Part shown: positions 2,103 through 12,022 of the stretch, in pieces
How the letters are laid out: each line of letters opens with the position of its first letter
How positions within the stretch are numbered: position 1 is the first letter of the stretch
Assembly (NCBI GenBank): GCA_030917805.1
Contig: JAUPUA010000072.1
Span: 1 to 12,140, forward strand
Direction of reading: 5' to 3'
Length of the DNA stretch: 12,140 nucleotides
DNA from: Patescibacteria group bacterium
Lineage (GTDB): Bacteria; Patescibacteriota; Saccharimonadia; Saccharimonadales; HK-STAS-PATE-42
The notes under the pieces: model-generated
Databases searched by the model: none
Told to the model about the DNA's origin: nothing
What the model saw: only the letters and a program-made list of their open reading frames with translations
Program-made: the position numbers and the translations under genes

Positions 2103-2120
2103 GTTCTAGATTATACCTTA

Positions 2121-2129
2121 TGCTACAGT
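2121..2129 (+). promoter_or_regulatory. Extended -10 promoter for the histidine phosphatase gene
   Basis: TGCTACAGT reads as an extended -10 (TGn plus a hexamer matching TATAAT at 4 of 6 positions). It ends 8 nt before the ATG at 2138, which would put transcription start at or next to that ATG. The alternative ATG at 2120 lies inside this element, which argues for the 2138 start. No convincing -35 is visible. Prediction only. Confidence 0.45.
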
Positions 2130-2137
2130 TAGTAGTT

Positions 2138-2680
2138 ATGGTATTCATTGCGAGACATGGGCAGAGTGAGGCAAATCTAGATGATCTATTTGCTGGTAAA
2201 GAACTTAATTCACCATTAACTAATATTGGTAGAGAGCAGGCCAAATTTTCGGGTGCTAAGGTAAAGCTTTTGAATATTGCTAAGATCGTCTCTTCGCCTA
2301 TAGAAAGGGCTCTAGAAACAGCACAAATTATAAGAGACTCTGCGGGGTTGAATGAGATAAAGATTGAAGTTGAAAAGGATCTTGAAGAGCTCGCAATGGG
2401 TGAACTTAGTGGGACTAAACGGTTTAAAGGTGTAGACGAATTCTGGGGTGCAGTAGGCGTTGAGGACCCTGACAAATTTAGGGATAGGGTCGCTAGGACT
2501 CTTTTAAAGGTAGATGAGGAAGGTAGGAATATCTTGGTGGTATCTCATGGAGTTGTTATTAAGGCGATTATAACAATTGAGAACGGTTTGACAGCCCGTG
2601 AGATCAGGACTTTGCATGATATCGAGAATGCAGTAGTTAAAGAGGTTGATATGGATGCAATAAAAAAGTTTTTAGAGTAG
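2138..2680 (+). CDS. Histidine phosphatase superfamily (phosphoglycerate mutase-like)
   Basis: A 180-residue cytoplasmic phosphatase/mutase of the RHG branch. The signature IARHGQSEAN places the phospho-accepting H7 eight residues from the chosen start; R57 (SSPIERALETA) and E84 (LEELAMGELSG) complete the phosphate pocket, and the second catalytic His is H137 in VVSHGVVIKAI. An upstream ATG at 2120 would add six residues, but it falls in the predicted promoter, and family members begin just before the RHG strand. The specificity loop is short, so cofactor-dependent phosphoglycerate mutase proper is unlikely; a small-molecule phosphatase (sugar phosphate, ribazole phosphate or similar) is more plausible but unresolved. 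It probably shares a transcript with the DUF1761 gene 42 bp downstream. Confidence 0.92.
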   Translation: MVFIARHGQSEANLDDLFAGKELNSPLTNIGREQAKFSGAKVKLLNIAKIVSSPIERALETAQIIRDSAGLNEIKIEVEKDLEELAMGELSGTKRFKGVDEFWGAVGVEDPDKFRDRVARTLLKVDEEGRNILVVSHGVVIKAIITIENGLTAREIRTLHDIENAVVKEVDMDAIKKFLE

Positions 2681-2709
2681 AATTTTTTTAGTTAAGGATA
2701 AATAAACGA

Positions 2710-2714
2710 AAGGG
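2710..2714 (+). promoter_or_regulatory. Shine-Dalgarno of the DUF1761 gene
   Basis: AAGGG lies 8 nt before the ATG at 2723, at good spacing. It is worth noting because most first genes in this window lack an SD, while this gene, which sits second in its transcript, has one. Confidence 0.65.
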
Positions 2715-2722
2715 TAGTTTTT

Positions 2723-3139
2723 ATGGAAGCTCAAGTTAATTTGGTGGGAGTTCTTTTAGCAACTCTGTCGAGTATGGTTGTGGGGAGTGTTTGGTATGCT
2801 AAGCCGGTTTTTGGTAAGACTTGGATGAAGCTTGTAGGCTTAACAGATAAAGATTTCAAAGAGATGAGTTGGACTCCGATGGTCTTTGCGATTGTAAGAT
2901 CAGCTTTTCTGGCGTATTTGTTAGCGTATCTAGCGTTTGTGGCAAATGCCTTTTACGGCAATAGCTTTACGCAGGATAGCTTGAAAGTGGCGTTTATGAT
3001 CTCTCTCATAGTCGTGCCAACGATGGTGATGCATGACCTATTTGAAGGTAGAAGAAAGAAGATAAGTCTAATCAATGGTCTGCATGAGTTTGTTACAATA
3101 ATGGTAATGGCTCTGGTGATTGGTGTAGTAGGACTTTAG
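2723..3139 (+). CDS. DUF1761 family small membrane protein
   Basis: A 138-residue integral membrane protein with about four predicted helices (roughly residues 6-24, 51-73, 86-104 and 118-137). The N-terminal pattern VNLVGVLLATLSSMVVGSVWYAK followed by FGKTWMKLVGL is the recognisable DUF1761 signature: an Asn in the first helix, WY at its end, then FGxxWM. The function of the family is unknown. Conserved polar residues inside the last helices (MHDLFEG near 103 and a His in NGLHEF) may be functional. A good SD supports the ATG. It follows the phosphatase gene and is closed by a hairpin terminator at 3166-3186. Confidence 0.82.
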   Translation: MEAQVNLVGVLLATLSSMVVGSVWYAKPVFGKTWMKLVGLTDKDFKEMSWTPMVFAIVRSAFLAYLLAYLAFVANAFYGNSFTQDSLKVAFMISLIVVPTMVMHDLFEGRRKKISLINGLHEFVTIMVMALVIGVVGL

Positions 3140-3165
3140 GGTTCGACTTTTCTAACTGCTACGTC

Positions 3166-3186
3166 ATCCCGGATTAATTCCGGGAT
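3166..3186 (+). terminator. Palindromic hairpin: rho-independent-like terminator or dispersed short palindrome
   Basis: A perfect 8-bp stem (ATCCCGGA / TCCGGGAT) with loop TTAAT, followed by CTTTCATT. It lies in the 73-bp gap after the DUF1761 gene and before the glycoside hydrolase gene. The T-tract is short, so termination may be moderate. The core with its flanks (GTCATCCCGG ... CCGGGATCT) resembles a palindromic repeat type seen between genes in several bacterial groups; only one copy is present here. Confidence 0.7.
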
Positions 3187-3212
3187 CTTTCATTATTACT
3201 AATCTTAATTAA

Positions 3213-4520
3213 ATGAAAAAGAACTTATTCGAGGATGATTTTTTATGGGGAGCTGGTGTTGCTGCGCATCAGGTTGAGGGCGGCAATGATAACGACTGGA
3301 CTGAGTGGGAGCTTGCCAATGCCTCGCACCAAGCAAAGGCTGCTCCAAACAAATTTGGTTACTTACCAAATTGGCCCAAGATCAAAAACGAGGCAACTGA
3401 CCCAAGAAATTATGTTTCGGGCCGAGCAAGTGAACACAAGAAATATTTTAAGCAAGATTTCGAACTTCTAAAATCACTAAATCTGAATACTTTAAGGTTT
3501 AGTATCGAGTGGAGTAGGATTGAGCCAACAGCGGGTGAGTTTAACAAAACTGCACTGCGTTACTATAAAACATACTTTAATGAGCTAAAGAGACAGGGGA
3601 TAACCCCTGTTGTCACTTTGTGGCACTTTACAGTTCCGAAATGGTTCGCTAGCAAGGGAGGGTTCTATAAACGAGGTAATATTAAATATTTTGAACGCTT
3701 TGTAGAGGTTGTTACAAAAGCCTTTGGTAATGACTTTACATATGTCACAATTTTGAACGAGCCGATGATCTATGCAAACCACTCTTTTAAAGACGGCAAG
3801 TGGCCTCCTCAGAATGAGAATATTCTAAAATCCGTAAAAGTTGTTTTAAATCTGATAACTGCCCATAAAAAAGCATCTAAGGTTCTTTTAAAATATCGAA
3901 ATGATTATAAGATTGGGATCGCGCATAACTGTGCAGACTTTTATATTGGTGATAGTACGCTGGCGACTAGGCTTAATGTTAAGTTTTTAAGGTGGGCTAA
4001 TAATCACTTCTTTTTGGATAGAACTAAAAAGTACCTAGATTTTATAGGTCTAAATTATTATTTTGCCGAGCGTCATTTTGGCTTTGGTTTGCACGCTAAT
4101 AATCCGGATAAAAATAGGAATGATATTGGCTGGAGCATGGAGCCCGCAAGAATATCTAATGTGGTACACGATATTTGGTGTAGGTATAAACTCCCAATAA
4201 TGATTACGGAAAACGGCGTGGCGGATTCTGGTGATAAATATAGAAAGTGGTGGATTGCAGAAACCTTAAAAGAGATTATTAAGCTTAAGAAGAAGGGTGT
4301 TGGACTTATTGGATACATCCATTGGTCACTGCTGGATAATTTTGAATGGGCAGATGGGCATTGGCCAAAGTTTGGTCTAATAGCGGTAGATAGAGAGACA
4401 GGATCAAGAAAGCTTAGGCCTAGTGCTAAGTGGTTTGGAGGTATTATTCAGCGTATTCAAAATCCAGGCCCAAGAAGTGAGCCTGTTACTGCCGCAAAAG
4501 AGATTGAGAAACTGAAGTGA
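3213..4520 (+). CDS. Glycoside hydrolase family 1 (beta-glucosidase/beta-galactosidase type)
   Basis: Retaining beta-glycosidase of 435 residues, a full (beta/alpha)8 GH1 domain. It starts with FLWGAGVAAHQVEGG (sugar-binding Q20), continues with LRFSIEWSRIEP (95-105) and WHFT (H138), and carries the acid/base E183 in LNEP and the nucleophile E333 in ITENG. The aglycone/glucose-binding region is SLLDNFEWADGHWPKFGLIAVD near 372-393. There is no signal peptide, so it acts in the cytoplasm on imported or internal beta-glucosides or similar; exact specificity (glucoside, galactoside or 6-phospho) cannot be read. The insertion around residues 40-70 differs from the common bacterial form and looks closer to archaeal-type members. 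No SD is seen before the ATG. The gene stands alone, convergent with the orphan at 4533-4838. Confidence 0.95.
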   Translation: MKKNLFEDDFLWGAGVAAHQVEGGNDNDWTEWELANASHQAKAAPNKFGYLPNWPKIKNEATDPRNYVSGRASEHKKYFKQDFELLKSLNLNTLRFSIEWSRIEPTAGEFNKTALRYYKTYFNELKRQGITPVVTLWHFTVPKWFASKGGFYKRGNIKYFERFVEVVTKAFGNDFTYVTILNEPMIYANHSFKDGKWPPQNENILKSVKVVLNLITAHKKASKVLLKYRNDYKIGIAHNCADFYIGDSTLATRLNVKFLRWANNHFFLDRTKKYLDFIGLNYYFAERHFGFGLHANNPDKNRNDIGWSMEPARISNVVHDIWCRYKLPIMITENGVADSGDKYRKWWIAETLKEIIKLKKKGVGLIGYIHWSLLDNFEWADGHWPKFGLIAVDRETGSRKLRPSAKWFGGIIQRIQNPGPRSEPVTAAKEIEKLK

Positions 4521-4532
4521 TTAGTTGCTAAA

Positions 4533-4838
4533 TTAGTTATCTTTCGGCACAAAAAGTGTTGTTGTCCCGGGCTCCTTTTTTAGATATTGGCTGGTTATCC
4601 CATCATATCTAGATCCTTCTGTGGTGAATGAACCTTCAGTGTTCTGTAGGATTCGTTCAATAGCATCCCTGCCAACCGAATCGTTACTTGTTGCTATAAC
4701 AGATACTCTAAAGAGTTCGTTAGCGGTGTCTGGAGCACCCATTACTTCAATATTTTTTAATTGACCTCTAATTGTGTCTAGGTCAAGTATTTCTCCAACT
4801 GGAGCAGGTTGTTTCTTTTTGTTTTCTGATGTTGACAT
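4533..4838 (-). CDS. Hypothetical protein, 101 aa, strongly promoted and probably leaderless
   Basis: I do not recognise this protein. It is short and soluble, with a low-complexity charged N-terminus (MSTSENKKKQPAPVGE). The remainder looks like a small alpha/beta domain: DLDTIRGQLKNIEVMG, then LFRVSVIATSNDSVGRDAIERILQNTEG, ending in a beta-rich tail (TTLFVPKDN). No cysteines, signal peptide or membrane segment. The ATG sits 7 nt after the -10 of a near-consensus promoter, which fixes the start and suggests a leaderless mRNA. It converges with the GH1 gene (12-bp gap). The strong promoter implies abundant expression, but no function can be assigned. Confidence 0.75.
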   Translation of the reverse strand: MSTSENKKKQPAPVGEILDLDTIRGQLKNIEVMGAPDTANELFRVSVIATSNDSVGRDAIERILQNTEGSFTTEGSRYDGITSQYLKKEPGTTTLFVPKDN

Positions 4839-4845
4839 AGTAGTC

Positions 4846-4874
4846 AGTATATCACTACTTATTGCTTATGTCAA
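4846..4874 (-). promoter_or_regulatory. Near-consensus sigma70 promoter for the 101-aa orphan
   Basis: On the minus strand, TTGACA (4869-4874, perfect -35), a 17-nt spacer and TATACT (4846-4851), preceded by TGA, giving an extended -10 as well. Seven bases then separate the -10 from the ATG at 4838, so initiation should fall on or beside the A of the start codon. The best promoter in the window. Confidence 0.85.
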
Positions 4875-4928
4875 TAGTCTGAAGGGTGATGTAGTGGATA
4901 TCATACATATGGTTGCTGAAGATGAGTT

Positions 4929-4959
4929 TTGTACACATCCTGTGGATAAGTTCTGCACA
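4929..4959. promoter_or_regulatory. Cluster of three DnaA-box-like sites
   Basis: TGTGGATAA at 4941-4949 is a perfect DnaA box (TTATCCACA on the minus strand). It is flanked by TTGTACACA (4929-4937) and TTCTGCACA (4951-4959), each one mismatch from TTATNCACA on the plus strand. A fourth, weaker match (two mismatches) is GGTGGAAAA at 4960-4968. The sites lie only 1-3 bp apart, about 70 bp upstream of the mraZ -35. DnaA binding is inference; no dnaA or dnaN gene is in the window. Confidence 0.5.
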
Positions 4960-5027
4960 GGTGGAAAAGCTACCACTGTAATTGATTTTTTGTCCCAGCT
5001 TTTCATTACTCGATATAAAGTTACTAC

Positions 5028-5057
5028 TTGTTTGTGGGTAGCTGTGGGTAGTATATT
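5028..5057 (+). promoter_or_regulatory. mraZ promoter
   Basis: TTGTTT (5028-5033), an 18-nt spacer and TATATT (5052-5057). The first two GTGGGT boxes fill the spacer exactly, so a bound repressor would block RNA polymerase. Predicted start is near 5064, giving a ~90-nt leader before the ATG at 5155. Confidence 0.6.
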
Positions 5058-5080
5058 TATCTTAGTGGGTAGATGTGGGT
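5034..5080 (+). promoter_or_regulatory. Four MraZ boxes (GTGGGT direct repeats)
   Basis: GTGGGT starts at 5034, 5044, 5065 and 5075: two pairs with an exact 10-bp pitch, the pairs being 21 bp apart (about two helical turns), so all four face the same side of the helix. Known MraZ operators are tandem TGGGN repeats with 5-nt spacers upstream of mraZ. Boxes 1-2 lie between -35 and -10 and boxes 3-4 just past the predicted transcription start, consistent with autorepression by the downstream gene. Confidence 0.85.
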
Positions 5081-5154
5081 GAACTGCAAGTTAAGCTAAA
5101 TAAGTTTACGTTGGTTCATTCAGAATAAAAACAAAAACTCCCACGAAATTTAAA

Positions 5155-5529
5155 ATGGCCAAAGTGGATTACTTCGCCCGGAAGCTCGACGACAAAAATC
5201 GTTTAACTTTACCTGCAGAGGTAAGGGATGAGTTTGCGGAAGGGATAGTAATTACACGAGGCTTTGGTACCTATCTGCATGCTTACCCTAAAGAGGTTTG
5301 GCAGCAAGATGTGGAATCTAGACTGAAGGGAGATATCCTGGATGAAAGGATTGCGGATCTTAATGTTAGATTTCGGATGGGAAAAAAGGATGTGGTACCG
5401 GACGGAAAGCAGGGTAGAATCACGTTAGATTCTAGTTTGCTTAGTTTTGCTGAGATTCAGCAAGACGTTGTGGCGATTCGAGTCGGCCAGTATTGGCGGC
5501 TCGGGTCACCTAAGAACATTAACAGCTAG
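5155..5529 (+). CDS. mraZ: Transcriptional regulator MraZ
   Basis: A 124-residue DNA-binding protein of the AbrB/SpoVT-like swapped-hairpin fold; in other bacteria it forms a ring and controls the division and cell wall (dcw) operon, of which it is the first gene. Two internal MraZ repeats are visible: FARKLDDKNRLTLPAEVR (7-24, with D12-x3-R16) and DGKQGRITLDSSLLSFA (83-99, with D83-x4-R88). Slightly shorter than the usual 140-150 residues, mainly at the C-terminus. The first repeat has DDKNR where DxKGR is usual. The ATG has no SD. Its own operator lies upstream. Unusually, rsmH/ftsL do not follow; a 405-bp noncoding stretch does. Identity is secure from the sequence and the operators together. 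Confidence 0.93.
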   Translation: MAKVDYFARKLDDKNRLTLPAEVRDEFAEGIVITRGFGTYLHAYPKEVWQQDVESRLKGDILDERIADLNVRFRMGKKDVVPDGKQGRITLDSSLLSFAEIQQDVVAIRVGQYWRLGSPKNINS

Positions 5530-5776
5530 ATTAGAGTTTTAACGCTCAATCTTAATATATTCTAATATTGCTACCGAGCAATCAGCGGTGGGTTTGAAGG
5601 AAACCACTTTAAAAAACCTTAGTACATCGGTATTTGCTTAAATCTGGTGAGGTTACTTTTGAATCGGACTATGTTCTTCTTTGAACTTGGCTCGCAAAGA
5701 TTCAAAATTACTAACCGCACTGCAAAGTTTTAAGTTTTACTAACAAAAAATCTCTCACTTCACATAAGTCTCTCTA

Positions 5777-5798
5777 TTAGATAGGAATAACTATCTAA
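5777..5798 (+). other. Perfect 8-bp hairpin
   Basis: TTAGATAG and CTATCTAA pair perfectly around the loop GAATAA. It is followed by an A-rich run broken by C (5798-5826), not by T's, so it is not a rho-independent terminator on the plus strand. On the minus strand the hairpin would be preceded, not followed, by T's. Probably part of the candidate RNA. Confidence 0.5.
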
Positions 5799-5855
5799 AC
5801 AAAAACAAAAATGATAAAAACAAAAAGCTGATTGTTCGATAATGATATTAGAATT

Positions 5856-5878
5856 AGCCCCACAAGTTTGGGGCTTTT
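5856..5878 (+). terminator. Rho-independent terminator after mraZ/candidate RNA
   Basis: A 7-bp stem AGCCCCA / TGGGGCT with loop CAAGTT, running into TTTT. It closes the mraZ transcription unit (or the separate RNA) just before the promoter of the next operon. Confidence 0.82.
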
Positions 5879-5917
5879 CTGTGCTTGTTGGTCGGAACAT
5901 ATGGGTGAATCTTGAAC

Positions 5918-5926
5918 TGTTATAAT
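5918..5926 (+). promoter_or_regulatory. Extended -10 promoter of the methyltransferase operon
   Basis: TGTTATAAT is a perfect extended -10 (TGn-TATAAT). It compensates for the lack of a good -35. It ends 8 nt before the ATG at 5935, so the mRNA is likely leaderless or has a leader of 1-2 nt; the purine-rich GGAAAGGA between them would then not act as an SD. Confidence 0.75.
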
Positions 5927-5934
5927 GGAAAGGA

Positions 5935-7239
5935 ATGGGGAAGAGAAGAAATACAAAAATGGAACCTTATGTTCTAAATGATATCGCTTTAGAGAAGTTC
6001 GTTAATGGTGGGCAGGCTCTTGGCTACACAACGGATGGAAAGCCGGTGTTTGTTTGGGGGGCACTGGCAGGTGAGACAGTTGATGTTTTGGTTTCTAAGG
6101 CCAAGAAGGGAATTCTAGAGGGTGTGGCTGAGAAAGTTAAGGTAAAATCACCAAATAGGATAGAGCCACTTGAGCAAGAGGAGTATATGAGTACGAGCCC
6201 ATGGCAGATTCTAAGTTATGGTTACGAGAATGAAGTTAAGCTTAGCCTATTAAGGCAGACCTTTAAGCACGAGGCCGGAATTGATTTTGCTGATACTGAA
6301 ATGGCTCAGGGCAAGAAGGAGTACGGCTATCGTAATAAGATGGAGTACAACTTTTGGGGTGATGACGAGGGTGTCCATCTTGCGCTTCATAAACGAGGAA
6401 CTGGCCAGAAGATTAAGCTTAGCGGAAGCGCTCTAGCATCTGAGGCTATAAATAAGGCCGGTAAAGAGTTGGTCAGCTTTCTGAACTTAAATAAGATTTT
6501 TGCAGGTGATTTAAAGAGCATTGTTCTTCGTTCTAATAGGGTGGGGGAGTGTGTTGGAGCCTTATTCGTTAAGAAAGAGAAGTTTGGTGAATTTGAGGCT
6601 CCGAAAAGCTTGAAAGGACTAGTTTGTTATTATTCTAATCCGAAATCTCCAGCTTCTGTTAAAACATCAGAGATCTGGAGAATAGGTGATATTACTTTGA
6701 GTGATGAAGTTTGTGGAACAGCTTTAGAATACGATGTAGATTCTTTCTTTCAGGTAAATATAGAGATTTTTGAAAAAGCGATTGAAGATATTAGGACTAA
6801 GCTTAATCCAAAGACTAAAAAAGTGATAGATTTTTATGGTGGAGTAGGGAGTATTGGAGTTTTGGTTGCTGATGGTAGGGCATTAGAGATTGTTGATATT
6901 GATAAGGACAATGCCCAGATGGCAAAGCAGAATTTAGCCAAGCTTAAGTTAGATAATGCTGAGGTTGTCTGCTTGCCGGGTGAAGATAGCCTAGATTCAA
7001 TTGTTACTGATTCTACTTTGATTGTTGATCCTCCAAGGGCAGGACTGCATAAAAGAGTTGTTCAGCAAATTGCTGAAGTTAAGCCTAAGCAAGTTATATA
7101 TCTAAGCTGTAACCCTGTTACGCAGGCTAGAGATGTGAAGATTTTGGTTGAGGCTGGTTATAAGATTAGCTTTGCTAAAGGTTATAACTTCTTTCCTAGA
7201 ACTCCGCATATTGAAAGTCTGGTGATACTGGAGTGTTAG
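5935..7239 (+). CDS. RlmD/TrmA-family RNA (uracil-5-)-methyltransferase
   Basis: SAM-dependent enzyme that makes 5-methyluridine in 23S rRNA or tRNA; 434 residues, the length of RlmD/RlmCD proteins. Domains in order: a TRAM-like OB domain (about 10-72), a central RNA-binding domain, and a Rossmann methyltransferase domain. Visible motifs: FFQVN (271-275), DFYGGVGSIG (299-308, SAM loop), DPPRAG (365-370), the nucleophile C392 in LSCNP, and the base E427 in TPHIES. The usual 4Fe-4S cysteines before LQxL are absent: the site reads MSTSPWQILSY (85-95). The ATG at 5935 is favoured by the abutting promoter; 5959 is possible. Whether the target is rRNA U1939/U747 or tRNA U54 cannot be told. First gene of a three-gene run to 8596. 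Confidence 0.93.
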   Translation: MGKRRNTKMEPYVLNDIALEKFVNGGQALGYTTDGKPVFVWGALAGETVDVLVSKAKKGILEGVAEKVKVKSPNRIEPLEQEEYMSTSPWQILSYGYENEVKLSLLRQTFKHEAGIDFADTEMAQGKKEYGYRNKMEYNFWGDDEGVHLALHKRGTGQKIKLSGSALASEAINKAGKELVSFLNLNKIFAGDLKSIVLRSNRVGECVGALFVKKEKFGEFEAPKSLKGLVCYYSNPKSPASVKTSEIWRIGDITLSDEVCGTALEYDVDSFFQVNIEIFEKAIEDIRTKLNPKTKKVIDFYGGVGSIGVLVADGRALEIVDIDKDNAQMAKQNLAKLKLDNAEVVCLPGEDSLDSIVTDSTLIVDPPRAGLHKRVVQQIAEVKPKQVIYLSCNPVTQARDVKILVEAGYKISFAKGYNFFPRTPHIESLVILEC

Positions 7240-7251
7240 AATTAATCTAGG

Positions 7252-7836
7252 ATGAATATTGATAACCTAAAACATACCGTGGCCGTCTTGGCCGCAATAC
7301 TTACCTTTGTAACGTATATTCCCTATTATAGGGATATCCTTAGAGGCAAGACGCACCCACACTTTTACACCTGGTTTCTGTGGACTCTATTGAGCGCTTT
7401 ACTCGTTGCCCTTCAGATAAAAGGAGATGCGGGTGCTGCTGTGTTGGTGTCTGGAGCTGCAGTTCTGCTGTGTATTGGAGTTGTTTTACTTAGTTTAAGG
7501 AAAGGTACAAAAGATATCACTAAGCTAGATAGCTATGTAGCCCTGTTGGGGCTTATTGCAATTATATTCTGGCTGGTTATAGATCAGCCTATAGTTTCAG
7601 CGATCTTACTAATAGTGGCGGATCTTCTTGCTTTCATACCGACTATTCGTAAAAGTTGGAATAAGCCCCACTCGGAGACTCTTTCACTTTACGTAACTAA
7701 TACTTTGCGTTTTTCTATGGCGTTATTTGCAGTGAAAGAGTATTCATTTCTTTCGGCATCTTGGATCGTGGTTTGGATCTTGGCTAATGCTCTTTTTGCT
7801 CTAATGCTGATTATTAGGAGGAGACAAGTAATTTAA
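7252..7836 (+). CDS. Seven-helix PQ-loop/SWEET-like membrane protein
   Basis: A 194-residue, very hydrophobic protein with about seven predicted helices (near 8-26, 38-56, 61-82, 93-110, 113-131, 144-161 and 168-188). The two ends look like repeats: helix 1 ends in YIPYYRDILRGKTHPH and helix 5 in FIPTIRKSWNKPHSET, each a Pro followed by a basic loop and a P-H. This 3+1+3 arrangement is that of SWEET/PQ-loop transporters, although the Gln of the PQ motif is absent. A sugar or small-solute carrier is a reasonable guess but unproven. It lies 12 bp after the methyltransferase and its stop overlaps the SD region of the nuclease gene, so all three are likely one operon. No clear SD precedes its ATG. 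Confidence 0.75.
   Translation: MNIDNLKHTVAVLAAILTFVTYIPYYRDILRGKTHPHFYTWFLWTLLSALLVALQIKGDAGAAVLVSGAAVLLCIGVVLLSLRKGTKDITKLDSYVALLGLIAIIFWLVIDQPIVSAILLIVADLLAFIPTIRKSWNKPHSETLSLYVTNTLRFSMALFAVKEYSFLSASWIVVWILANALFALMLIIRRRQVI
7816..7823 (+). promoter_or_regulatory. Shine-Dalgarno of the nuclease gene inside the upstream gene's end
   Basis: AGGAGGAG lies in the last codons of the membrane protein gene, 14 nt before the ATG at 7838. The spacing is longer than ideal. With the upstream stop only 1 bp before that ATG, this points to translational coupling. Confidence 0.55.
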
Positions 7837-7837
7837 T

Positions 7838-8596
7838 ATGAGTGCAGTTCAAAAAGTTGGATATAGGGGGATATATGATCCGAAAAGTGAGGCACCGTTT
7901 AGGATATCACGCTCGAAGATTGATCTTTTTTTAAACTGTGAAAGGTGTTTCTGGCTGGAGGTTAGAAAAGGAATTAAACGGCCGCCCGGTTTTCCATTTA
8001 ACATAAACTCAGCGATTGATGAGCTTTTGAAAAGAGAGTTCGATGCATATCGGGTAGATAAGCTGCCACATCCAATTATGGTTGAGAACGGATTGGAGGG
8101 AGTTCTACCTTTTGAGCATGAGGATATGGAGATCTGGCGAGAGAACTTTACTGGAATTCAATATTACGACGAGAACCTAAACTTAATTTTGTTTGGTGCA
8201 GTGGATGATATTTGGGTGAACGAGGCAGGGGAGTTGATTGTGGTGGATTATAAGTCTACTTCTAAAAAGAGCGAGGTGACTTTAGATGCACCTTGGCAGA
8301 TTGGCTACAAAAGGCAGATGGAATGTTATCAGTGGCTTTTAAGAAAAATTGGTTTCGAGGTAAGTGATGTTGGATATTTTGTTTATGCAAACGGTAACAG
8401 CGATGCAGAAGGTTTCTTTGATGTAGTCGAGTTTAATACTAAGCTGATTAGCTATAAGGGTGATGATTCTTGGGTAGAGCCAACGCTACTTGAACTTAAA
8501 GCCTGCATGGGTAGTGATGAGATGCCAAAGTTTGGCGCTAACTGTGAGTATTGTAAGTATGTTGGAGAGAGGTTGAAACTTTCCTGGGCTAAGTAA
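7838..8596 (+). CDS. PD-(D/E)XK nuclease, RecB/Cas4-like with two Cys pairs
   Basis: A 252-residue predicted DNase of the RecB-exonuclease/PDDEXK_1 group. The active site is visible: GAVDD (D123), VVDYK (D137, K139) and the family's QxxxY motif Q160-x3-Y164. The paired cysteines C34/C37 (NCERCFWLE) and C236/C239 (NCEYCKY) lie at opposite ends of the domain, the arrangement used in Cas4 and AddB to hold a 4Fe-4S cluster, although those usually have one N-terminal and three C-terminal Cys. C223 could also contribute. No helicase part and no cas genes are nearby; it stands as the last gene of the methyltransferase operon. Role in repair or uptake of DNA is inference. Confidence 0.87.
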   Translation: MSAVQKVGYRGIYDPKSEAPFRISRSKIDLFLNCERCFWLEVRKGIKRPPGFPFNINSAIDELLKREFDAYRVDKLPHPIMVENGLEGVLPFEHEDMEIWRENFTGIQYYDENLNLILFGAVDDIWVNEAGELIVVDYKSTSKKSEVTLDAPWQIGYKRQMECYQWLLRKIGFEVSDVGYFVYANGNSDAEGFFDVVEFNTKLISYKGDDSWVEPTLLELKACMGSDEMPKFGANCEYCKYVGERLKLSWAK

Positions 8597-8610
8597 GGTG
8601 GGGCTCAATT

Positions 8611-9021
8611 CTAACTATCGGATCTGGACTGATTTTTCTTTTCTAGGATATAGCTATCTACTTTTGGCTCAAAAATTTCTATAGTGTCTTTATCGTCATA
8701 GGCAGTTTCTAAAGTTACTCTTCTTAGGGCGGGAGGTATCATGGCCATCGCTGCTTCAACAATACCCCTAGTTCTTTCCTCTTCTGCTCGTTTTTGTTCT
8801 TCGTGTCTTCTTATTAGGGCTTCAAGTGTTTGTTCTGTTCGGCTAGGGTAAGATGGTGATCCAGTTAGTTCAAGTAATCTACGACCCGCAGTATCAGATT
8901 GGTCGGATATGTTTAGGGAGTGGATAGCCACACCGTCCTCGCGCCCTCTTTTGGTAGAAGGTGTGTTACTAACTCTGTCTATACCTTTGTAGGTGGGTTT
9001 ATTTATGGATAGCTTTGTCAT
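8611..9021 (-). CDS. Hypothetical protein, 136 aa, with charged helical segment
   Basis: Not recognised. Hydrophilic, with a basic, Ser/Thr-rich N-terminal third (MTKLSINKPTYKG) that looks disordered, then a long charged helix around residues 60-95 (TLEALIRRHEEQKRAEEERT), possibly coiled coil, and an acidic C-terminal part ending in KKNQSRSDS. No Cys, signal peptide or membrane span. The start at 9021 is chosen over an in-frame ATG at 9081 because a strong promoter (-10 at 9031-9036) lies between them; the longer form would be translated from upstream of its own promoter. Divergent from serS and convergent with the nuclease gene. A short, lineage-specific protein is likely. Confidence 0.65.
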   Translation of the reverse strand: MTKLSINKPTYKGIDRVSNTPSTKRGREDGVAIHSLNISDQSDTAGRRLLELTGSPSYPSRTEQTLEALIRRHEEQKRAEEERTRGIVEAAMAMIPPALRRVTLETAYDDKDTIEIFEPKVDSYILEKKNQSRSDS

Positions 9022-9030
9022 AATAAAAAT

Positions 9031-9060
9031 ATTATATAAAGTAGGCGTATCTAATGTCAA
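9031..9060 (-). promoter_or_regulatory. Strong promoter of the 136-aa orphan
   Basis: On the minus strand, TTGACA (9055-9060), an 18-nt spacer and TATAAT (9031-9036): both hexamers are perfect. Nine bases separate the -10 from the ATG at 9021, leaving a leader of about 0-3 nt. Confidence 0.85.
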
Positions 9061-9092
9061 CACTAAGGGAACTATATTCAATTTAAATAGGG

Positions 9093-9098
9093 TATAAT
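9093..9098 (+). promoter_or_regulatory. serS -10 box
   Basis: TATAAT lies 9 nt before the serS ATG; no good -35 or TGn extension is visible. If used, the serS mRNA has a leader of about 3 nt at most, and no SD is possible. It faces away from the orphan promoter at 9031-9060 within an 86-bp divergent gap. Confidence 0.65.
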
Positions 9099-9107
9099 AT
9101 TTGGAAT

Positions 9108-10406
9108 ATGTTGGATATTAAGTTTATTCGTGAGAACCCAGAGGTCGTTAAAGAGGCTGCGCGCAATAAGAATGTAGATGTTGATATTGATCAGTTATTG
9201 GTTCTTGATGAGCAGGTTGTAGCTTTGAGGCAAGAGTTGGATGCTTTGCGTCAAAAGAGGAACGAGAATGCTGAGAGCATGAAGGGTGGCAAGCCGAGCT
9301 CTGAACAGATTGAAGAAGGAAAGAGGCTTAAAGATGATATTTCTGAGCTAGAGGCTAAGCTTAGTCCGCTTGAAGAACAGCTTCTGGGTTTAATGTACAA
9401 AGTTCCTAATATTTCGGAGCCGGAGGTTCCAGTTGGGGCAACTGAAGAAGAGAACGTTGTGGTTGCAGAGTTTGGTAAAAAGCCAGAGTTTAGTTTTAAG
9501 CCTAAAAACCATTGGGAACTTGCGCAAGCAAAAGGCTGGATTGATAAAGAACGAGCAGCGAAGGTAGCGGGCTCAAGATTTGCATACATCAAGGGAGATA
9601 TGTTTAAGCTACAGTTCGCATTGGTTGGTTTTACTTCTGATAGATTAACTGATGAAACTTGGCTTAAAAGTGTTGCTGAGAAGGCTGAGCTTAATGTCTC
9701 TACGAAGCCTTTTGTACCTGTTATCCCCCCTATGATGGTTAAGACTAAGCCGTTTAAAGGTACGGGCCGTTTAAGTAAAGAAGAACAGACTTATCAGATT
9801 GATGAAGATGAGTTGTGGTTAAATGCAAGCGCTGAACACAGTATTTGCCCGATGTATATGGATGAGATTGTTGCTGAAAGTGATCTACCGATTAGGTATC
9901 TTGGTTATGCTACAAGTTTTAGGAAAGAAGCCGGAACTTACGGTAAAGATATGGAGGGAATTCTTCGGATGCACCAGTTTGATAAGTTGGAGATGGAATC
10001 ATTTACTGTTCGGGAAAGAAGTAAAGAAGAACACCTGTTCTTAATCGCTATTCAGAAAGAGTTACTTAATGAGCTTGGGCTTCATTACCACTTCTTAGAA
10101 AAGTGCACTGCTGATATTGGAACTCCCAATGCTAAAGGAGTTGATCTTGAGACTTGGTTCCCGGCTCAGAATAAGTTTAGAGAGACCTCTAGCGCGGATC
10201 TGATGAATGACTTTCAATCCAGAAGGCTTAACATGAGAGTTCGTCGAACTAGCGGTGAGCTTGAACTAATGCACACCAATGATGCAACAGGGATAGTAAT
10301 GAGCCGAATTCCTCCGGCAATTTTGGAAAATTATCAGACGGAGAGCGGAGACGTTGTGATTCCGGAGGTCTTGAGGCCTTATATGGGCGGCAGGGATAAG
10401 ATTTAA
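9108..10406 (+). CDS. serS: Seryl-tRNA synthetase
   Basis: Class II synthetase charging tRNA-Ser (and tRNA-Sec where present) with serine; 432 residues, complete. Residues 1-105 form the tRNA-binding helical arm (MLDIKFIRENPE, then a coiled coil to about 95). Catalytic core: motif 2 as FRKEAGTYGKD (271-281) followed by EGILRMHQFDK; WFPAQNKFRETSS (350-362) and NDFQSRR (367-373) in the ATP/serine site; motif 3 with GIVMSR (395-400) and AILENYQ; and the near-invariant C-terminal VIPEVLRPYMGG. The serine-binding loop, usually TAE, reads SAE (241-243), and motif 3 has NDATGIVMSR instead of the common NGSGLAxGR. The ATG sits on its -10 box. Followed by a 62-codon ORF and hpf. Confidence 0.97.
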   Translation: MLDIKFIRENPEVVKEAARNKNVDVDIDQLLVLDEQVVALRQELDALRQKRNENAESMKGGKPSSEQIEEGKRLKDDISELEAKLSPLEEQLLGLMYKVPNISEPEVPVGATEEENVVVAEFGKKPEFSFKPKNHWELAQAKGWIDKERAAKVAGSRFAYIKGDMFKLQFALVGFTSDRLTDETWLKSVAEKAELNVSTKPFVPVIPPMMVKTKPFKGTGRLSKEEQTYQIDEDELWLNASAEHSICPMYMDEIVAESDLPIRYLGYATSFRKEAGTYGKDMEGILRMHQFDKLEMESFTVRERSKEEHLFLIAIQKELLNELGLHYHFLEKCTADIGTPNAKGVDLETWFPAQNKFRETSSADLMNDFQSRRLNMRVRRTSGELELMHTNDATGIVMSRIPPAILENYQTESGDVVIPEVLRPYMGGRDKI

Positions 10407-10419
10407 AAAAGTAGTTTAT

Positions 10420-10608
10420 ATGTCTGCCGACCATTTAAACAGATCAAAACAGTTTATAAGTGCAAGTACTGAGACTCCGGCTAAGGTACCTAAGGTTCTT
10501 TTTGCTGGTTTAATAGGGTACATGGCGTTTGATCTTTATACTAATGATAACTTGTTTCTAATAAGGGATGCTCTTAATCTAGCTAATGGAACTCTGGGGA
10601 CACCTTAA
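10420..10608 (+). CDS. Small hypothetical protein, 62 aa
   Basis: Not recognised. Starts 13 bp after the serS stop. The middle (VPKVLFAGLIGYMAFDLY, residues 24-41) is hydrophobic enough for a short membrane segment, flanked by a polar N-terminus and a Thr/Gly-rich tail. Codon choice resembles the neighbours and it fills an otherwise empty 254-bp gap, which supports it; absence of an SD or promoter before the ATG argues against it. It could also be a chance ORF. No function proposed. Confidence 0.45.
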   Translation: MSADHLNRSKQFISASTETPAKVPKVLFAGLIGYMAFDLYTNDNLFLIRDALNLANGTLGTP

Positions 10609-10638
10609 GCTAAGGGTGTATAATCTAAGTTAAGATTA
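10597..10638 (+). promoter_or_regulatory. hpf promoter with overlapping inverted repeat
   Basis: GGGACA (10597-10602, 4 of 6 to the -35), a 16-nt spacer and TATAAT (10619-10624). The inverted repeat TAATCT / AGATTA (10621-10626 with 10633-10638, 6-nt loop) overlaps the -10 and the predicted start, so it could be an operator or a 5' hairpin. It begins inside the end of the small ORF upstream. Confidence 0.5.
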
Positions 10639-10650
10639 ATTGATAACGAA

Positions 10651-10655
10651 GGGAG
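10651..10655 (+). promoter_or_regulatory. Shine-Dalgarno fixing the hpf start
   Basis: GGGAG lies 5 nt before the ATG at 10661. This favours that ATG over an in-frame TTG at 10640, whose extra seven codons would read through the SD itself. Confidence 0.75.
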
Positions 10656-10660
10656 CCTCG

Positions 10661-11044
10661 ATGCAGATCAATCTAACATTCAAACATTTTAAGAAGGGTG
10701 AAGAGAAGTTAGCGCGTAATCTTAAAAAGTACGCTGAAGAAAAATTTAAAAAAGTAGAGGAGGTTTTACCTAATCATGCTAAAAAGAGTGCCAAATTGGA
10801 TGCAACACTTGATGAAAGTGGAAAGAAGACTCCGGGTTACAAATTCAAATTTGATGTAAAGCTTAGGTTACCAGGCAAGAGCCTTAGATCTAGTTTTAAC
10901 GCCAATACTGCTGAACAGGCAGTTAACAAAGCCGAAAGAAAGCTTGTCCAGCAACTCAACAAATATAAGACTCAGCACCATACAGATAAACGAATGGATA
11001 AAAAGACTCTAGCAAAACTAAGAAGAATCTTGAAGAGAGGTTAG
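10661..11044 (+). CDS. hpf: Ribosome hibernation promoting factor (HPF/RaiA, S30AE family)
   Basis: A 127-residue basic protein predicted to bind the 30S decoding region and idle ribosomes in slow growth. It starts MQINLTFKHFKKGEE, matching the first strand of S30AE proteins; then the helix LARNLKKYAEEKFKKVEEVL, the central strands KFKFDVKLRLPGKSLRSSF, and the second helix TAEQAVNKAERKLVQQLNKYK, the family's ADxxxAxDxAxxKLxxQLxKYK pattern. A short lysine-rich tail (after about 105) replaces the C-terminal dimerisation domain of long HPFs, so this is the short form. The SD-led start and a 30-nt leader contrast with the leaderless genes nearby. It lies downstream of serS but probably has its own promoter. 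Confidence 0.85.
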   Translation: MQINLTFKHFKKGEEKLARNLKKYAEEKFKKVEEVLPNHAKKSAKLDATLDESGKKTPGYKFKFDVKLRLPGKSLRSSFNANTAEQAVNKAERKLVQQLNKYKTQHHTDKRMDKKTLAKLRRILKRG

Positions 11045-11069
11045 TACTGGGTAGGAATCCTAATATATA

Positions 11070-11696
11070 TTATCGTAGGCAATGTATTATGGCTAGCGAT
11101 TGAGATACTTTCAATAGCGTAAAGCTCTGATTTAGCCTTAGGAATTCATCAACGGCTTTTTTGGTACCAGGAAGGGCCGGGTTGTTGTAGTCGTCTACAA
11201 TTACTATCCCACCAGAAGTTAACCTATCCTCGATCAAACTAAGTGGGTCTAAGACTGATTTATAGAAGTCGCCATCTAGAAATGCGAAGCAGATTTGTTT
11301 AGGGAGATCTTTTTCTTTAAGGTCTGAGAACCACGCTTTTTTTATCTTTGGTATTGGGAGGTTGGCTTTTTTGAAGTTAAGCTTAAGCTGCGATTTTGAG
11401 GCCATAAGCTCACCTGGGATAAAGTCTGCCCCAGCTGCTGATTGATCTTGACTCATTTTTTCTGGGAGTCCTTCAAAAGAATCGTAGAGGTAGAGCTTCT
11501 TTTTTGAGCTACTAACTTGGAGTAATCTTTGAATAAACAGGCTAGTGGTACCCACAAAGCAGCCAAATTCGCAAATGTCGCCTTCAAAATCTAAGCTTAA
11601 TATTCGTTCAAGCTCTTTTAAAATAATAAGGAGTTCATCTTTCTCAATTTGTTCGGAGATTATTGGATGTTTTTCAAGTAGTTCTTTATATGTCAT
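11070..11696 (-). CDS. TylF/MycF-family O-methyltransferase
   Basis: A SAM-dependent class I methyltransferase of 208 residues. From the chosen start: a helical N-terminus, the SAM loop EFGCFVGTTS (near 43-52), the TylF hallmark DSFEGLPE after LYLY, the metal/catalytic acidic motif FLDGDFYKSVLDPL, and GGIVIVDDYNNPALPGTKKAVDEF, all in the family order. Known members methylate sugar hydroxyls of macrolides; relatives in non-producers act on surface sugars or are unassigned. The second ATG (11696) is preferred over the one at 11702, which lies only 2 nt behind a TATAAT box; the second lies 8 nt behind it. Shares a mirror-image promoter region with the divergent orphan at 11741, and converges with hpf. 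Confidence 0.88.
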   Translation of the reverse strand: MTYKELLEKHPIISEQIEKDELLIILKELERILSLDFEGDICEFGCFVGTTSLFIQRLLQVSSSKKKLYLYDSFEGLPEKMSQDQSAAGADFIPGELMASKSQLKLNFKKANLPIPKIKKAWFSDLKEKDLPKQICFAFLDGDFYKSVLDPLSLIEDRLTSGGIVIVDDYNNPALPGTKKAVDEFLRLNQSFTLLKVSQSLAIIHCLR

Positions 11697-11702
11697 AAAC
11701 AT

Positions 11703-11732
11703 TTATTATAGCTGTTAAATGATGTATAATAA
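11703..11732. promoter_or_regulatory. Mirror-image divergent promoters in a 44-bp gap
   Basis: The perfect inverted repeat TTATTATA (11703-11710) and TATAATAA (11725-11732), 14 bp apart, supplies the -10 of both genes: TATAAT on the minus strand at 11705-11710 (8 nt before the methyltransferase ATG) and on the plus strand at 11725-11730 (10 nt before the orphan ATG). Each -10 lies where the other promoter's -35 would fall, so the two can probably not be occupied together. Confidence 0.7.
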
Positions 11733-11740
11733 AAGCTATT

Positions 11741-12022
11741 ATGGCAATCGAGTCGAGTAATTTTTGTTTTAACGATCTAGATAGACAACGAAGAAAGGAA
11801 GAGGTGGCCCGTCAACAGGCTACACTTGAACACTTGGCGGCAGTAGTTATTGATAGAAACGCTGAGAGGCTAGCGTATATCGCTAAGATGAACCATATAG
11901 ACTTAGCAGATGATGGCATGAGACGGGAGATTCTCATACATACAGCTGCCATCAGAGATGATAGGATGAGGGATTACGAGGGAGATTATGGTTGGGAACT
12001 AGACCAGTCTAGTGGTCTTTAA
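11741..12022 (+). CDS. Hypothetical protein, 93 aa
   Basis: Not recognised. Highly charged and probably all helical: residues 12-48 (NDLDRQRRKEEVARQQ... through IDRNAERLAYIAKMN) read as a long amphipathic helix, 54-74 as a second, with an acidic, Tyr/Trp-containing tail (DYEGDYGWELDQSSG). One Cys (C9). No signal peptide or membrane span. The start is supported by a TATAAT 10 nt upstream and a nearly leaderless layout. Its 3' end overlaps the convergent HIT gene by 14 bp. A small adaptor- or toxin-antitoxin-sized protein, but nothing here supports a specific role. Confidence 0.65.
   Translation: MAIESSNFCFNDLDRQRRKEEVARQQATLEHLAAVVIDRNAERLAYIAKMNHIDLADDGMRREILIHTAAIRDDRMRDYEGDYGWELDQSSGL
12001..12018. 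terminator. Weak convergent terminator-like hairpin
   Basis: AGACCA / TGGTCT (6 bp) with loop GTCTAG, followed by TTT on the plus strand. It spans the overlapping 3' ends of the orphan and HIT genes. The stem is short and the T-run minimal, so termination is uncertain. Confidence 0.35.

Follow-up and report, generated by a model that had tools for sequence, protein, structure and literature searches.

Sigma-70-type -10 boxes immediately before start codons suggest leaderless or nearly leaderless mRNAs in a Saccharibacteria genome

Among promoters that adjoin the genes they serve, the closest described system is the -10-adjacent-to-ORF pattern of Deinococcus-Thermus, in which, according to the accessible text of PMC12340547, the -10 element suffices and a -35 element only enhances; the same paper also scanned further bacterial phyla. 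In a survey of 953 bacteria (PMC3160421), the signal of AT-rich genomes, Lactococcus among them, reads TAtAAT and comes with a TG peak. GeneMarkS-2, as summarised in the accessible part of PMC9581028, predicts that 21.6% of bacterial species use leaderless transcription, for up to 40% of transcripts. On the side of translation, a review (PMC9031893) describes 70S ribosomes that begin at an AUG placed on the 5' end or very close to it, and states that initiation factor 3 (IF3) selects against non-canonical sites and is able to inhibit leaderless mRNA; studies in which IF3 is required are cited there as well. Here we analysed a stretch of 12,140 nucleotides (the window; positions 1 to 12,140 of contig JAUPUA010000072.1, assembly GCA_030917805.1) from a bacterium of the Saccharimonadales (Patescibacteria), in which -10-like hexamers stand a few nucleotides (nt) before eight start codons. 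From the sequence arrangement we consider it very likely that sigma-70-type promoters abut start codons in this organism and produce mRNAs with a leader of 0 to about 5 nt, which would be translated without a Shine-Dalgarno (SD) sequence beside other genes that possess one.

The sequence-only reading of the window had listed seven such hexamers, five of them exact TATAAT, and all seven were found at the sites it named, with spacers (counted from the 3' end of the hexamer to the ATG) of 8, 7, 8, 9, 9, 8 and 10 for starts 2138, 4838 (minus strand), 5935, 9021 (minus), 9108, 11696 (minus) and 11741, respectively. The five exact boxes precede the gene of a tRNA_U5-meth_tr/TRAM methyltransferase, here called trmA (start 5935; box 5921..5926, plus strand, an extended -10 of the form TGT-TATAAT), an orphan gene at 8611-9021 (box 9031..9036, minus, with TTGACA 18 nt upstream), the seryl-tRNA synthetase gene serS (start 9108; box 9093..9098, plus), a TylF-like methyltransferase gene (start 11696; box 11705..11710, minus) and an orphan gene of 93 amino acids (start 11741; box 11725..11730, plus). 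The orphan gene at 4533-4838 has an extended -10 with 5/6 matches, TGA-TATACT (box 4846..4851, minus), and TTGACA 17 nt upstream. The histidine phosphatase gene (start 2138) has TACAGT (2124..2129, plus), a TANNNT word preceded by TGC and hence an extended -10, which with 4/6 matches to TATAAT is the weakest of the set and was found by eye; the automated scan gave instead TATGCT (4/6) at spacer 13, and single weak cases such as this one could be chance matches. An eighth box, absent from the earlier list, is an exact TATAAT (2110..2115, minus) at spacer 7 from ATG 2102 of a NIPSNAP-family gene (1776-2102). The Pfam families found among the window genes are completed by Ribosomal_S30AE, an HPF-like gene here called hpf, which provides the contrast: its exact TATAAT (10619..10624, plus) is followed by a 36-nt interval to ATG 10661, and this interval holds the SD-like AAGGGAG (10649..10655, plus).

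Transcription by sigma-70 polymerase begins about 7 nt past the -10 box. With the box directly adjoining the gene, RNA polymerase would start on the A of the ATG itself or at most some 5 nt ahead of it, hence the very short leaders proposed. Ribosomes, mostly 70S, would then take the AUG at or near the 5' end without SD pairing, as work on other bacteria suggests, while other genes of the same genome, such as hpf, would use SD leaders. Near-start promoters of this kind, lacking a leader, would also make very short divergent intergenic gaps possible.

A genome-wide enrichment at this spacing, the check set by the sequence-only reading, was present in the roughly half of the genome sampled and exceeded shuffled controls. 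The genome (G000) comprises 612 kb in 93 contigs and is 66% complete; the sample consisted of 44 whole contigs plus the window (288 kb, 3.8% N). Genes were predicted with a purpose-built codon-score caller that makes no use of the motif and favours ATG; it picks the upstream starts 2120 and 11702, and is therefore biased against the finding at those two loci. We call internal any gene with a same-strand neighbour at a gap of 25 nt or less, a term with no mapped operons behind it. Since a first pattern count (TATAATN{5,9}ATG, 67 against 57 for the reversed control) was too noisy, start-anchored counting was adopted. Among 222 non-internal starts, exact TATAAT was found at spacers 7 to 11 in 6, 7, 11, 8 and 6 genes, and in none at spacers 3-6 and 12-18. 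The resulting 38/222 at spacer 6-11 compare with a mean of 2.6 and a maximum of 8 in 300 dinucleotide-preserving shuffles of the same upstream regions, and with 3/86 among internal genes. When the window was excluded, 27/210 non-internal genes had the exact box at spacer 7-10 (Poisson P ~5e-20; 6.75 genes per position against 0.57 elsewhere), as did 3/82 internal genes. An identical pipeline applied to 200 kb of E. coli K-12 gave 0/125. For the window itself, the shuffle rate yields P ~1e-7 for at least 5 exact boxes among 16 starts and P ~2e-9 for at least 6, values that are generous because three of the starts were chosen with the motif in view. Allowing one mismatch, the excess over control intervals amounted to a share of 0.23 among non-internal starts and 0.34 among divergent ones, which roughly estimates how many use a near-start site.

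Some divergent gene pairs in this genome lie very close together: 8/49 have a start-to-start gap below 60 bp by the caller's starts. A near-start -10 with at most one mismatch precedes 11/16 of the divergent starts with gaps below 60 bp, 15/28 at 60-100 bp, 12/36 at 100-200 bp and 9/18 at 200 bp or more. The short divergent gaps of the window are 2102-2138 (35 bp between start codons), 11696-11741 and 9021-9108.

Gene by gene, the arrangement was conserved in relatives, for which we took the best 80 loci by serS match (1.38 Mb, all 80 used); 61 of these are titled Saccharibacteria, Saccharimonadia or similar, and the remainder have other or unspecific titles. TATAAT with at most one mismatch stands at spacer 5-12 before serS in 67/80 relatives, against 8/80 for an equally wide control interval, and several of the 13 relatives without it (e.g. 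L062, L063, L064 and L084) show, by eye, an SD-like word instead. As serS matches begin at residue 1 in 80/80 loci, its start is hardly in doubt. Comparisons of trmA, hpf and the phosphatase used the best 30 loci per gene (matches were present in 45, 71 and 35 of 80 genomes); one trmA locus (L253), with a match from residue 145, was excluded, and the window's own locus is counted in the resulting sets of 29, 30 and 30. For these sets a near-start hexamer counted at whichever of several in-frame starts it preceded, and the control spacing was read from identical starts. It was found in 20/29 trmA loci (control 2/29, SD in 1) and, with at most one mismatch at spacer 6-11 of some start, in 14/30 phosphatase loci, a count in which the window's own locus is scored as a miss (control 3/30, SD in 6). 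For hpf, an SD 4-mer precedes some start in 25/30 loci and the near-start hexamer is present in 4/30, not above its control (3/30). With serS and trmA mostly preceded by a near-start -10 and hpf mostly leadered with an SD, these sequence comparisons suggest that the initiation mode tends to be a conserved property of the gene.

In the congener G215, the -10 boxes of both divergent starts, 11696 and 11741 (the latter at spacer 10), are conserved, as are the -10 and ATG 5935 of trmA and the TATAAT, leader and G-rich SD-like stretch of hpf; the alternative ATGs 5959 and 11702 are absent there. The sequence-only reading had corrected three starts, of which 11696 is backed by this congener and 2138 fits the N-termini of phosphatase homologues, while 9021 follows from the spacing alone.

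In the relatives, an exact TATAAT precedes 93/826 non-internal starts at spacer 6-11, against counts of 7-21 for five equally wide control intervals, and 25/395 internal genes have one as well. We then counted TATAATN{6,11}ATG against TATAATN{13,18}ATG, at any ATG, in 145 genomes of the phylum. The counts were 101 and 41 in the own genome; the ratio exceeded 1 in 10/10 genomes of the class (P<0.01 in 8/10) and in 115/135 other genomes of the phylum (P<0.01 in 50/135). By start-anchored counting, four high-ratio genomes of other phylum groups each gave 5 exact boxes in 56-70 non-internal genes (controls 0-2). Among low-ratio genomes the exact counts were 5/81 in G012 (controls 1-3), 1/41 in G043 (1-3), 2/34 in G104 (0-4) and 3/22 in G015 (0-1); the samples of G015, G030 (0/12) and G115 (0/5) are too small for judgement. 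Within the same order, G109 gave 18/63 exact boxes, 12 of the 18 at spacer 6 and 14 of the 18 with TG. The near-start peak recurs in the 80 related loci and, in patches, in other Patescibacteria.

The boxes themselves look like sigma-70 -10 elements. In 345 near-start boxes with at most one mismatch, a selection that itself favours conservation, T1, A2, A4 and T6 are 94-99% conserved, position 3 is T in 73% and position 5 is A in 79%. TG stands one base before the exact near-start box in 53% of own cases (n=38) and 51% of those in relatives (n=93), compared with 5-7% at random places and 22-31% at leadered boxes; the extended -10 therefore marks about half of the exact near-start boxes, not all. 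In the window, TG was seen in 3/8 boxes (2138, 4838 and 5935) and a perfect TTGACA at two (4838 and 9021). In general -35 elements are weak, with at least 4/6 matches in 37% of own and 34% of relatives' promoters against 24% and 22%. Region 3 of sigma-70, which contacts the TG of an extended -10, was detected in 20/20 genomes searched, the own genome included. In pooled leadered promoters, a pyrimidine-purine (YR) step lies at positions 6-7 after the -10 in 45/103.

The sequences point to SD initiation as well. Where a gene has no near-start TA signal, SD 4-mers are concentrated 4-15 nt upstream of the start; in TA-led genes they are nearly absent, an exclusion that is partly geometric. The sequence-only reading had assigned SD sequences to genes inside operons or with a real leader (2723, 7838 and 10661); this was borne out at 2723 (AAAGGG), 7838 (AGGAGGAG, 14 nt from the ATG) and 10661 (GGGAG), and did not prove universal: at starts 871, 3213, 5155 and 10420 a clear SD and a near-start -10 are both missing, and the operon-internal start 7252 has a 5/6 box, TAGAAT, at spacer 9 and no SD. 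A genome-wide SD-less initiation of the Bacteroidetes type was rejected in view of the SD peak in non-TA genes and the SD of hpf in 25/30 loci. Loss of the anti-SD in the class was likewise rejected, CCTCC being intact in 14/14 readable 16S tails (from 20 loci, of which six on the opposite strand were left unread); 16S was found in 37/61 genomes of the class, the own genome not among them. Nor can missing bS21 be the cause of leaderless use, as bS21 is present in 61/61 class genomes (E<=0.001; 45/61 above the curated cut-off). The class thus keeps both the anti-SD and bS21, suggesting that SD initiation coexists with the near-start arrangement. As a separate observation, in the bS21 gene of the own genome (G000:C1:3039-3202; L001) an in-frame ATG upstream of the domain match has a TATAAT at a distance of 8 nt before it.

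Since IF3 can act on leaderless mRNA, we also note its distribution: the N-terminal domain (IF3_N, PF05198) was found in 17/20 genomes searched, the misses being G000, the congener G215 and G222, in which IF3_C (PF00707) was not found either; these three are 66%, 74% and 94% complete, respectively. A broader scenario, in which leaderless initiation would be ancestral, would be chosen gene by gene and would count as a main mode across Saccharibacteria and a large part of Patescibacteria, and this genus would have drifted to leaders of 1-5 nt with the loss of IF3, appears to us unlikely.

Several results weigh against the idea that these promoters yield leaderless or nearly leaderless mRNAs. About half of the own starts show neither an SD nor a near-start -10, and the two initiation modes proposed by the sequence-only reading, although both present, thus give an incomplete account of the genome. 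Its split by operon position, clear for exact boxes in the own genome, is weak in relatives, where the one-mismatch excess was 0.20 in tight same-strand neighbours and 0.22 in other genes. In G067, of the same order, exact boxes were found in 0/116 genes and the one-mismatch count exceeded its controls only weakly (22 against 10, 8, 18 and 6), and the TG extension was rare in the four samples from other phylum groups (0, 0, 1 and 2 of 5 each). A geometry-fair test of SD avoidance was not significant (own 2/43 against 7/142, P=1.0; relatives 8/87 against 90/561, P=0.11), and SD avoidance, largely forced by geometry, was dropped as independent support. The YR peak was not seen in the 22 own leadered promoters alone and is diffuse in near-start promoters. 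A pyrimidine at -1, which would be expected as a transcription-start signature if the A of the ATG were +1, was rejected too, being no more frequent in TA-led than in SD genes (own 28/38 against 32/48, P=0.64; relatives 60/93 against 212/355, P=0.47). Finally, own spacings have their mode at 9 and 0/38 exact boxes lie at 6, compared with 18/93 at 6 in relatives (nominal P=0.0016), suggesting that strictly leaderless mRNA is likelier in relatives than here.

The rival that survives best reads the AT-rich hexamer as a signal for translation, for example an S1-binding site or a non-SD ribosome site like that of Bacteroidetes, and places the true promoters further upstream. Near starts, AT-rich biases are hard to sort into Pribnow boxes and S1 sites, as the accessible text of PMC5397173 points out, and the rival gains from the starts that bear neither signal and from the hexamers that also precede tight same-strand neighbours in relatives. 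However, TATAAT with the TG of an extended -10 is a promoter hallmark, hpf has the same hexamer about 30 nt or more upstream and then an SD, the exact hexamer is scarce before the own tightly internal genes, and the spacing distribution has a hard lower edge at 6-7. Given this balance we regard a translation signal as improbable.

Alternatively, the promoters could be real and the starts miscalled, with the true start codons lying downstream behind an SD leader. For trmA there is some reason to consider this, since full-length TrmA matches begin at query residue 8-19 and a second in-frame ATG is present at 5959. Yet no clear SD precedes 5959, the congener retains ATG 5935 and not 5959, and serS matches start from residue 1 in all 80 loci; we regard miscalled starts as very improbable. 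Chance arising from AT-rich composition and a post hoc choice of starts deserves the least credence of all: although 2138, 9021 and 11696 were chosen with the motif in view and 2138 matches at only 4/6 bases, chance is ruled out for the set as a whole by the shuffles (38 against 2.6) and by replication outside the window, with the control spacings, E. coli and conservation across relatives pointing the same way.

A separate observation concerns the mraZ gene (5155-5529) and its surroundings. Downstream of it, the non-coding stretch 5545-5885 (plus strand) is predicted to form one large fold (minimum free energy -88 kcal/mol, z -6.9 relative to 100 shuffles). Its identity to the congener is about 83%, and pieces of it are conserved beside mraZ in L025; it is a candidate for a new structured RNA linked to mraZ. 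Rfam gave no family at gathering score in the window, where there were three weak matches (E 0.08-0.9), one overlapping 5545-5885 on the opposite strand, and none at gathering score in L025 or L321; no tRNA or tmRNA was found. Upstream of the gene, TGGG occurs four times within 5035-5080 (at 5035, 5045, 5066 and 5076), as two pairs with a spacing of 10 bp; these words are conserved in the congener and resemble MraZ operator boxes, and a DnaA-box-like TGTGGATAA lies at 4941. The mraZ region with its non-coding flanks (4917-5855) is 83% identical to the congener, against 75% and 69% for the coding stretches 3213-4518 and 5918-7232, and the identity of the MraZ protein is 93% with the congener and 89% with L025. 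The gene order is mraZ followed by the structured stretch, not by rsmH.

Should leaderless mRNAs serve a large share of first genes in this group, many annotated Saccharibacteria starts may be wrong, the start codons would directly reveal where the promoters lie, and reporters for cultivated strains should be built with the -10 right beside the ATG. These orthologue sets, with serS and trmA mostly of the predicted leaderless kind and hpf leadered, make the evolution of initiation mode testable gene by gene.

In the open-licence literature searched we found no description of leaderless mRNA in Saccharibacteria or other Patescibacteria: PMC7441243 and PMC6851277 contain the word 'leaderless' in reference titles only, and PMC12641178 mentions it for YchF only. 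The groups named in the accessible part of PMC3160421 exclude Saccharibacteria and other Patescibacteria, bar one unclassified genome, and that text does not contain 'TM7'. The TA-led genes of this survey are nonetheless alike, with a TA-like signal about 12 bp before the start, and the leaderless class of GeneMarkS-2, as described in the excerpt of PMC9581028, has the same inferred mechanism. As far as the text of PMC12340547 goes, Deinococcus-Thermus shares with our genome a TANNNT motif a few bp before the ORF, leaderless mRNA (here predicted) and coexisting genes with a ribosome-binding site. It differs in belonging to another phylum; in the genome studied here, moreover, the central bases of TATAAT are mostly conserved, TG is common and the arrangement is known from sequence alone. 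The mechanism is therefore one already known from Deinococcus-Thermus and Actinobacteria, and the novelty seems to lie in documenting it for Saccharibacteria, in its conservation gene by gene and in its patchy reach across the phylum.

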